This document shows positions 9,467-11,200 of a DNA stretch of 64,000 nt, one piece after another. Under the pieces are notes generated by a model, which saw nothing but the letters and a program-made list of their open reading frames with translations, was not told where the DNA came from and did no database searches. The DNA is from Bremerella sp. TYQ1. GTDB lineage: Bacteria > Planctomycetota > Planctomycetia > Pirellulales > Pirellulaceae. Where the stretch lies: NCBI RefSeq assembly GCF_020150455.1, contig NZ_CP083740.1:3782001-3846000 (forward strand), in the 5' to 3' direction. The translations under genes were made by a program, and so were the position numbers. The first letter of the stretch is position 1. The number at the start of each line of letters is the position of its first letter.

Positions 9467-10282
9467 TCACGCTGGCAGCAAAATTTCGCCACGTCCCATC
9501 TGGGCCAAGTCGCCATGGTAAAGATCGTAGCTGGCGGTCGACATCAGCCGGGCCACCTCAGGGACTTCCAGCCGCTCGAACTCTTGCACCAACAGCGGCA
9601 TCATCGTTGGCTTAAACTGGCATGCATGGATGAACCCAGCCATTAAGTCGGCTTGCTTGTTGCCATTCAGAATGATCGTTCCGCGTCGCATCGAAAGCCC
9701 GGCGTGGGCACCTGCTTTCCCGCCGACGAAGATCGTCCCAGCCAGCATTTCGTAGCCGAGGAAATCGCCGCAGTCGTTGGTCACCGCAATTGTTCCCCGC
9801 CGCATCCGATGACCCAGCTCTTTACCAGCCGAACCGAGAATGAAGATGTTGCCTCCGGCCATTCCTTTCTTCAGGCCTGGCAGAGGTGCTCCGACACGAT
9901 CGCCGACATTTCCCAGCACTTTGATGAAGCCTGACTTCATCCCTTCGGCCAGGTTATTGCCGACATGGCCATGGATGTAAAGCGAACCACTTTTCATCTC
10001 TTGCCCGGCATGATGACCGACAGCTCCTTGCACGAACAGCGTTCCGCCATCGAGGCCAGCTCCGATGTTGTCCGCTTTGGCCAAGTTGCCAATCAATCGA
10101 AGCGTCTCTTCACGGCGTGTTTCGGTTTCGATATGGAACAACTCGCCCAGTTCGACACGGCGGTTCCCTTCCCAAACGGTGACTTTCGCGGCTTCTTCGA
10201 TCGACATCGGCAGTAAGCGCGAAGGAAGGACACCTCGAAGATCGAGGCCAACCGTGATATCGTGACGTAGGCGAAGTCTCAT
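9467..10282 (-). CDS. fhcC: Formylmethanofuran dehydrogenase subunit C
   Basis: 271 residues from ATG 10282 (an upstream in-frame start at 10315 would add 11). The middle and C-terminal parts are a run of Gly-rich units such as GGTLFVQGAVGHHAG, SGSLYIHGHVGNN, GGNIFILGSAGKELG and AGTIFVGGKAGAHAG, the beta-helix of FwdC/FhcC, also found in the glutamate synthase C-terminal domain. In bacteria this subunit belongs to the formyltransferase/hydrolase complex of the H4MPT-linked C1 pathway, known in planctomycetes. Other fhc subunits are not in the window. The divergent neighbour is mobA, which makes the molybdopterin guanine dinucleotide used by enzymes of the formylmethanofuran dehydrogenase class. 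Confidence 0.88.
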   Translation of the reverse strand: MRLRLRHDITVGLDLRGVLPSRLLPMSIEEAAKVTVWEGNRRVELGELFHIETETRREETLRLIGNLAKADNIGAGLDGGTLFVQGAVGHHAGQEMKSGSLYIHGHVGNNLAEGMKSGFIKVLGNVGDRVGAPLPGLKKGMAGGNIFILGSAGKELGHRMRRGTIAVTNDCGDFLGYEMLAGTIFVGGKAGAHAGLSMRRGTIILNGNKQADLMAGFIHACQFKPTMMPLLVQEFERLEVPEVARLMSTASYDLYHGDLAQMGRGEILLPA

Positions 10283-10335
10283 GGCTTTATGGATCAAAGT
10301 CAGGACGTGATTCAAACGATCAGGTTGTGCATGCA

Positions 10336-10488
10336 GGATGGTACCGATTTTTAAATCGGTATCGGCGTAGCCGACAAGCTGCCATTGAATGCGTTGGGAA
10401 GCGAATGAAACCGTTGCTTATAGGACAAACTACTTACAATGGCTTCTTGTGGCCTTCGGCCATCCCGGTTTAAAAACCGGGACCACCC
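10336..10488. repeat. Large palindromic element with covarying double hairpins
   Basis: Two 52-base arms (10336-10387, 10437-10488) in inverted orientation, 40 of 52 positions matching, separated by 49 bases. Each arm holds two hairpins. Arm 1: ACCGA/TCGGT (10343-10347, 10356-10360) and TCGGC/GCCGA (10362-10366, 10370-10374). Arm 2 read on the minus strand: CCCGG/CCGGG and TGGCC/GGCCA. Eight of the 12 arm differences form four compensatory base-pair changes. Arms start with GGATGGT and GGGTGGT. It fills the divergent promoter region between fhcC and mobA. The architecture matches the element at 8981-9057. Confidence 0.85.
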
Positions 10489-10564
10489 CAACATACCGAC
10501 AACACAAACGTGATGGGGCATTGCCTGGCACGTTTCCAATATAACCGACGAGTGTTCTGACAAC

Positions 10565-11200
10565 ATGACCACGTTGCCTCGATCTCAGCGAACGGCATTG
10601 ATTGTTTGCGGTGGTGAAAGCCGTCGGATGGGGCAATCGAAGGCGCATCTTCCTTTCGGCGACGAAACGATGCTGGAGCGTGTCGTGCGGATCGTTTCTC
10701 CGTTGGTCGAAGAAGTAGTACTGCTGACAAGCAAAGTGTACGAAGTCCCCGAGCTTCCTTACGACGTGACCGAGCTGCCAGATCGTGTGGAAAAACAAGG
10801 CCCCGCGGCGGCGCTGTACGAAGGGCTGAAGTATGTCACCAGCTGGTCGGAAGCTTCGGTCGTGCTGGGATGCGATCTGCCGTTGGTCACCGCAGAAAGT
10901 ATCGAGTTTTTATTCGCCGAATTAAATCACTTCGACGCGGTGATCCCGCGGTTCGAAGGCTTTCCGCAACCATTAGCCGCCGTGTATGCTAACGCGGCGT
11001 TAGAGCCGATCGAGAATATCCTGCATTCTGGTAACCACCGCTTGCTGTCCTGCATCGAAGGGCTTGAAACACGCTGGGTCAAGGTGCGCCAACTAAGCAG
11101 CATCGATCCGAACCTCGGCTTGCTACGCAATGTCAACACGCCAGAGGCGTATCGCGAAGCATTGCAGATCGCAGGCCTTCCACATCCACTAGAAGATTAA
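10565..11200 (+). CDS. mobA: Molybdenum cofactor guanylyltransferase MobA
   Basis: 211 residues. The N-terminal nucleotide-binding loop ALIVCGGESRRMGQSKAHLPFG is the MobA form of the LxGGxSxRMGxdK motif (shown here as a 22-residue span at residues 10-31; key residues are the two Gly, Arg-Met-Gly and Lys). GCDLPLV near residue 100 matches the metal-binding GxDxP segment. The enzyme transfers GMP from GTP to molybdopterin in the cytoplasm. It is transcribed away from fhcC across a structured palindrome. The DinB-like gene follows 26 bases downstream on the same strand and may be co-transcribed. Confidence 0.88.
   Translation: MTTLPRSQRTALIVCGGESRRMGQSKAHLPFGDETMLERVVRIVSPLVEEVVLLTSKVYEVPELPYDVTELPDRVEKQGPAAALYEGLKYVTSWSEASVVLGCDLPLVTAESIEFLFAELNHFDAVIPRFEGFPQPLAAVYANAALEPIENILHSGNHRLLSCIEGLETRWVKVRQLSSIDPNLGLLRNVNTPEAYREALQIAGLPHPLED

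Follow-up and report, generated by a model that had tools for sequence, protein, structure and literature searches.

The palindromic element at positions 10336..10488 of the window (a 64,000-nucleotide stretch, G000:C1:3782001-3846000, of the 6.66-Mb, single-contig genome of Bremerella sp. TYQ1) is, at a probability that we put at roughly 85%, a REPIN or BIME: a non-autonomous repeat linked to REP-associated tyrosine transposases (RAYTs), built from two inverted REP-type units with local hairpins and moved by a RAYT through a single-stranded DNA step. Sequence, BLAST and covariance-model matches all describe it as an inverted unit pair of 153 bp, to which no strand is assigned. It belongs to a structured, covarying repeat family found beside RAYT genes, and it is present at this locus in TYQ1 and in none of eight congeners. 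From this we infer that the element is probably mobile.

The element comprises a left arm (10336..10387, + strand), a 49-bp spacer (10388..10436, no strand assigned) and a right arm (10437..10488, - strand). The arms were identified by covariance-model matches and classed by their second hairpins, which make the left arm S type (TCGGC-GTA-GCCGA) and the right arm R type (TGGCC-GAA-GGCCA). Both follow one layout, in which the longer hairpin comes first and the small hairpin next. On the left (+ strand), these parts are the foot GGATGG (10336..10341), where ATGG replaces the GTGG that is commonest in the family, hairpin 1 with the stem TACCGA...TCGGTA (10342..10361) and hairpin 2 with the loop GTA (10362..10374). 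On the right (- strand), they are the foot GGGTGG (10483..10488), hairpin 1 with the stem TCCCGG...CCGGGA (10463..10482) and hairpin 2 with the loop GAA (10450..10462); all four hairpins were defined by folding and covariation. A direct reading of the sequence bore out two statements of the original prediction, that 40 of the 52 positions are identical between the arms and that eight of the differences are paired changes. The 12 differences fall at unit positions 3, 8, 12, 21, 25, 28, 30, 33, 36, 38, 44 and 45, and the four base-paired changes are 8-25 (A-T/C-G), 12-21 (A-T/G-C), 28-38 (C-G/G-C) and 30-36 (G-C/C-G). When 12 differences were placed at random 300,000 times, at least four doubly changed pairs arose in 0.05% of placements; with one in three double changes taken as compensating, at least four compensated pairs would arise by chance in about 2 per 100,000. 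The single-stranded DNA fold of 10316-10508 lay 3.9 sd below dinucleotide shuffles, none of 200 of which was as low.

Further copies were found elsewhere in the genome, both by BLAST and by the covariance-model search that the original prediction had suggested. With the element as BLAST query, 21 matches passed E<=0.001, spread over 16 places. Model R1, built from an alignment of 21 arms (A1; 21 of 26 arms, after removal of three that were degraded and two that were exact duplicates), returned 33 matches at E<=0.01, among which the units used to build the model match by construction and three are weak. The matches include ten inverted pairs that are short, at 146-155 bp, and two that are wider, the others being singles; by eye they fall into subfamily A, with the tail GAAGCCATTG, and subfamily B, with the stem CCGGG and the tail GAGGC. 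Seven of the ten short pairs overlap no chosen ORF of at least 90 aa on a rough longest-ORF map with predicted starts; the other three, L004, L009 and L011, overlap an ORF wholly or partly. With model R2 at E<=0.001, matches numbered 94 in the congener G090, 35 in G151, 18 in G129 and 20 in TYQ1 itself, with 0-1 in each of the other five congeners.

Spacing between units was close to constant. Among the units listed for four genomes of the genus (83 of the 94 in G090 and 31 of the 35 in G151, with the three weak TYQ1 matches left out), 62 of 65 neighbouring units at most 400 bp apart formed inverted pairs with the feet outward and a length of 146-157 bp; 25 of these measured exactly 153 bp. 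Two of the remaining three neighbours are tandem-pair junctions and one is a lone unit beside a pair. Spacer sequence varies among copies, and the outer pair length stays near 153 bp. At two places in G090, L159 (G090:C15:1324-3765) and L160 (G090:C2:255257-256310), the whole 153-bp pair stands in tandem as near-alike copies, as in REPIN arrays. An exact GT[A/G]G foot is carried by 79 of 113 units (20/29 in TYQ1, 25/46 in G090, 15/17 in G129, 1/1 in G107 and 18/20 in G020) and is missing from 34; this set excludes 13 of 126 model matches that were partial over the model. The foot ATGG occurs in four of the 29 TYQ1 units, and the element in the window combines it, on the left arm, with GTGG on the right. 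Matches in G020, a relative within the family, numbered 22 in all. The 20 places fetched (L189-L208, some of the stretches ending at contig ends) carry lone S-type units with the same two-hairpin structure, the foot GTAG in 18 and a partner unit beside none.

Covariation across copies, on which the prediction had hinged, was borne out for both hairpins, including in units from outside the structure-defining set. For A1, 95.6% of 272 cells were paired and 37 cells showed two-sided change; neither value was reached by any of 500 shuffles, and slid controls gave 0-1 two-sided cells. Under control (a), 67 of 500 shuffles reached the six pairs with two-sided change and 471 of 500 reached the number of pair types. 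Alignment A4 was made from 51 of 63 G090 and G129 units, picked as clean or as not near-duplicate, whose stem-1 sequence differs from that of A1; having been found with model R1, they are separate sequences rather than a blind pick. In A4, 97.4% of 649 cells were paired, and two-sided change was seen at six pairs and in 53 cells, each of these values being reached by none of 500 shuffles. Slid controls gave 1-3 cells, and 80 of 500 shuffles reached the pair-type number.

The resemblance to BIMEs and their RAYTs, raised when the element was first described, also stood. A Y1/RAYT gene had been proposed as something to look for; the genome proved to have four Y1 genes, two of them inside the wider arm pairs. 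RAYT-A (gene 3220407-3220934) lies within subfamily A arms (3220222..3221087) and RAYT-B (gene 3381827-3382342) within subfamily B arms (3381677..3382432), in both cases with the S arm upstream and the R arm downstream, and the two proteins are 58% identical. Inner edges are common to four B short pairs and the RAYT-B arms, with TCGTTTG in five of five S arms and AGATAA in four of five R arms. HVH and Y-x-H-x-NP motifs are invariant in seven of seven RAYTs, which are 171-175 aa long; in Pfam, RAYT-A and RAYT-B match PF01797 only, and the sole PDB sequence match at E<=0.01 was 4er8, TnpA-REP. Bremerella sp. P1 carries a RAYT that is 61% identical, and the RAYT of G129 is flanked on both sides by a complete 153-bp pair. 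No match to the RAYT alignment was found at E<=1e-30 in G151 (one contig, 99% complete, 35 units) or in G090 (94 units), nor at E<=1e-20 in G020. G090 holds one 35% relative, flanked by other repeats. Other Y1 genes inspected as candidate cognates for G090 and G020 were rejected, the repeats at their flanks being of other kinds or none being found. Units without a clade RAYT in G151 and G090, together with the lone units of G020, show that copies persist after a resident RAYT is gone or manage with none.

To place the family more widely, an alignment of seven RAYTs was searched against 196 genomes of the order, and relatives were found at E<=1e-30 in 24, TYQ1 included, which documents the pairing of RAYT and repeat in a patchily spread clade. 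Two-hairpin units stood within 1.5 kb of 20 of the 28 related RAYT loci, in 18 of the 24 genomes; no unit was found at the other eight loci. The descriptor took as a unit any stretch with a loose G-rich foot, then a pair of adjacent hairpins, then a tail fitting A[AG]G[ACG][AG]G; hairpin 2 had to have a loop of 3-5, of any sequence, and three or more G/C in its 5' strand. A slightly narrower version had no hits in 400 kb of TYQ1 background and found 15 of 22 known TYQ1 arms. Counted once per genome and inner hairpin beside the RAYTs of the order, hairpin 2 was closed by a C-G pair in 46 of 47 cases, and its loops were GNA in 28 of 36 triloops and GNNA in nine of ten tetraloops (37 of 46 together). 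C-GNA-G forms an unusually stable DNA minihairpin. A GNA loop as a universal rule was rejected: in G090 it is present in 4 of 20 S arms and 16 of 18 R arms, and in G129 in 3 of 9 S arms and 6 of 8 R arms. From 257 relatives, 80 loci were kept and the flanks of 14 were inspected; inverted repeats of at least 30 nt were present at nine of the 14, part of these not being two-hairpin units. A like layout was seen by eye beside the RAYTs of some named metagenome-assembled genomes (MAGs), mostly Planctomycetota. One, labelled Desulfarculales (L217, DBMO01000032.1), has a clade RAYT (44%, best segment) with GGGTGG two-hairpin units around it, reflecting either inter-phylum transfer or a binning error.

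The two arms of a pair are, as a rule, of different types. With S (TCGGC/GCCGA) and R (TGGCC/GGCCA) patterns written after inspection of the units, all 34 classed pairs from three genomes joined one S arm to one R arm, and four of 38 pairs, in which one arm is degraded or doubtful, stayed unclassed; at L010, L161 and L169 the second arm is of the opposite type by eye, and at L164 a second unit is not evident. Were 34 S and 34 R arms paired at random, the chance of this outcome would be near 10^-9, although, as the copies share descent, the 34 of 34 is a description and not a test. The wider set from the order has 23 outward pairs of neighbouring units in 15 genomes, and in 20 of these pairs, from 12 genomes, the arms differ in the inner four bases of hairpin 2. 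That arms are always unlike was rejected, since hairpin 2 is alike in the other three pairs (G258, G281 and G183); by eye, arms are alike at L211, L217 and L095. In TYQ1, the S arm is on the left in 11 of 12 pairs (sign test 0.006), and ten of the 12 lie at 1.25-4.2 Mb (0.007), mostly in negative GC skew, where sampled GC skew marks one replichore. The pattern being post hoc and G129 mixed, a replication-strand bias is not claimed.

Folding qualified the proposal that constraint acts on local hairpins rather than on one long hairpin. It is nearly true of the copy in the window, for which the free fold reached -31.7 kcal/mol versus -28.8 kcal/mol for local-only folds, with 11 inter-arm base pairs in the lowest-energy fold. 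It did not hold more widely: among 32 of the 36 short pairs (L010, L161, L164 and L169 left out), arms pair at 10 or more positions in the lowest-energy fold of 30, the window copy among these. The mean advantage of free over local-only folding was about -46 kcal/mol with alike arms and about -14 kcal/mol with real arms. Complete avoidance of snap-back by unlike arms was rejected on these values, the arm-arm fold being weakened, not abolished. Somewhat short of even odds may be given to an explanation in which the element is RAYT-linked and the arm difference solely protects it from the problems of a long hairpin (replication stalling, SbcCD cleavage), hairpin 2 having no role in recognition or end identity. 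The arm differences lower the free-over-local-only advantage by about 32 kcal/mol on average, as such protection would have it, and protection from degradation has been suggested for REP heterodimers by Di Nocera 2013 (PMC3733652). However, compensation accompanies most of the differences between arms in hairpin 2, and mismatching by itself would not call for a small hairpin with a C-G closing pair in 46 of 47 cases and GNA/GNNA loops in 37 of 46; persistence of the arm-arm fold argues against it too.

On the preferred reading, of a REPIN moved by a RAYT, DNA that becomes single-stranded at replication would allow local hairpins to form on the foot-bearing strand, a RAYT dimer would recognise foot and hairpins and cut near these, and the element of ~153 nt would be copied or moved to a new site; in the lineage of TYQ1 it would have arrived in the gap between fhcC and mobA. 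By analogy with E. coli TnpA-REP, the substrate would be the strand that bears the GT[A/G]G foot; PMC8266576 reports for that enzyme that single-stranded REP is recognised and its complement is not, GTAG being crucial. The arm difference would weaken the long snap-back hairpin and so favour the two-hairpin ("clover") form; a suggestion by Bertels & Rainey 2011 (PMC3116915) is that the long hairpin is an unlikely RAYT target and that the clover fold is recognised. The difference may also mark the two ends. More tentatively, and we consider this possible rather than probable, the second hairpin might be an end-identity tag, a RAYT dimer needing one S and one R arm. The C-GNA-G minihairpin would then be read as a structural cue beside the GT[A/G]G guide; the stem-2 swap would stop the arms annealing with both arms staying recognisable. 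If true, such a tag would explain the preference for REP heterodimers, which Di Nocera 2013 (PMC3733652) reports and calls without obvious explanation. REPs and REPINs are small repeats widespread in bacteria. How RAYTs move them, and why their halves are so often unlike, can be reduced in this family to a clean swap experiment, since arm identity is carried mainly by one small covarying hairpin at near-constant spacing and one genome has two cognate transposases.

That the element is instead a MITE derived from a conventional insertion sequence, of the IS200/IS605 or another kind, is unlikely. The two RAYT loci do look like gene-bearing versions with matching left and right arms, but the enclosed proteins score as RAYTs: all six proteins tested, RAYT-A and RAYT-B included, passed the cut-off of NF047646, the NCBIfam REP-transposase model, and failed that of IS200 (23.5-41 bits versus 55). 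The gene-bearing versions are also only two, at 58% identity, where an insertion sequence would be expected to leave near-identical copies, and no target duplication was seen on unsystematic inspection.

The family fits among known REP systems, within the parts of the published texts that were available for comparison. The original prediction knew of no such family in planctomycetes, which was wrong: for Rhodopirellula baltica (Planctomycetes), Di Nocera 2013 (PMC3733652) had reported REPs as well as a "plethora" of tyrosine transposase genes that have repeats at their flanks. Like the REPINs of Pseudomonas fluorescens SBW25 (PMC3116915), whose authors propose "hairpin" and "clover" folds, the elements have two inverted REPs at a preferred distance, tandem copies and compensatory changes, and each repeat type is beside its own RAYT; unlike them, they have two hairpins per arm, arms that differ systematically in the second, a length near 153 bp and tens of units per genome. 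E. coli BIMEs (PMC8266576) similarly pair unlike arms (y-z1, y-z2) and have a tetranucleotide foot and a Y1 transposase, although the E. coli REP is a single imperfect palindrome with a bulge and GTAG, whereas here the foot is mostly GTGG and a second hairpin with a GNA-type loop is present. The GTAG REPs of Di Nocera 2013 (PMC3733652) also include HH dimers with outside feet, heterodimers and, in some families, spacer-end hairpins. TIRtrons and TIRYTs from the same source likewise have tyrosine transposases bracketed by inverted repeats, with double-palindromic TIRs, but those transposases (mostly subclass 2.1) have a median of 238 aa and a C-terminal HTH, compared with 171-175 aa and PF01797 only in the present RAYTs, and GGGGWSAS, found in many of their TIRs, occurs in none of the 113 units with 5-nt flanks. 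By motif comparison only, the RAYTs are like TnpA-Y1 subclass 2.6, Bertels group 5 (PMC6006769), in [N/D]HVH, WQ (WT in two of seven), Y[I/M]H-NP and a length of 171-175 aa. The repeats of that subclass are said there to lack GT[A/G]G, and its members to come mostly from Bacteroidetes; the repeats described here have mostly GT[A/G]G feet. A REP of the GT[A/G]G class has one palindrome per unit and the present unit has two covarying hairpins, for which reason it is filed as a REP variant. The REPtron trait, a RAYT flanked by the same repeats, was found at RAYT-A, RAYT-B and 20 of the 28 related loci, and not in G090, G151 or G020. What appears to be new is the two-hairpin unit itself, with its GT[A/G]G-type foot, variable hairpin, small C-G-closed hairpin with a mostly GNA/GNNA loop and AAGAGG-like tail, at 20 of 28 related RAYT genes across the order, and apparently also the location of arm identity in the second hairpin. 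No account of a two-hairpin GNA-loop unit was found in the literature text compared, and figures or supplements may depict it for R. baltica.

At the locus itself, the element sits between two divergent genes, one for a GXGXG-domain protein (9467..10315, - strand; start possibly at 10281 by congener alignment), which an earlier note labelled fhcC, and one for a MobA-like NTP transferase (mobA; 10565..11200, + strand). All eight congeners have the two genes side by side but lack the element between them. The gap is 274-279 bp here versus 58-65 bp in the six congeners measured, and the element makes up 153 of the 214-219 extra bases; about 60 further bases (10284-10335 and 10489-10537) are not explained by it. 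Congener alignment also revealed a motif, AATATAACCGAC (10538..10549, + strand), which adjoins mobA outside the element and has been kept intact on its far side; the core AATATA is present in eight of eight congeners, the rest of the motif being somewhat changed. As this core becomes TATATT when read from the opposite strand, both divergent genes may be served by it, and the leader of the fhcC-like gene here would then contain the element. A pattern search of 10200-10650 found no sigma-70-like promoter or terminator. The exact insertion junction was not visible in the congener flanks, which are too diverged, and transposition, excision or a target site was not seen. An effect on both promoters, raised in the original prediction, keeps its positional basis, the element being inside the divergent gap, and is weakened by the intact motif beside mobA and by the lack of a sigma-70-like promoter by pattern.

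A role at the RNA level, as mRNA-leader hairpins, an attenuator or a bidirectional terminator for fhcC and mobA, is improbable. The element is structured, covarying and upstream of both genes, but no T-tract terminator was found by pattern, and an Rfam scan of the locus yielded only two microRNA-family matches, which at 20 bits lay below the gathering score of 117 and were put down to chance. The element is also absent from the locus in all eight congeners, and its family is linked to RAYT genes. A chance or decayed palindrome without function, to which the left-arm foot ATGG in place of GTGG might point, is hardly credible given the copies, the arm pairing and the covariation.

Two Y1 genes of TYQ1 stand apart from RAYT-A and RAYT-B. 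The gene at L036:1486-2138 (G000:C1:5701485-5702137) lies between inverted arms of 88 nt with 84% complementarity and by eye shows GGGGCTTCCGCCCC-like palindromes; it is unrelated to the window family. The fourth, at L038:1314-2140 (G000:C1:4385313-4386139), contains an in-frame TGA and has 25-nt inverted arms with GTCCGC-TGT-GCGGAC.
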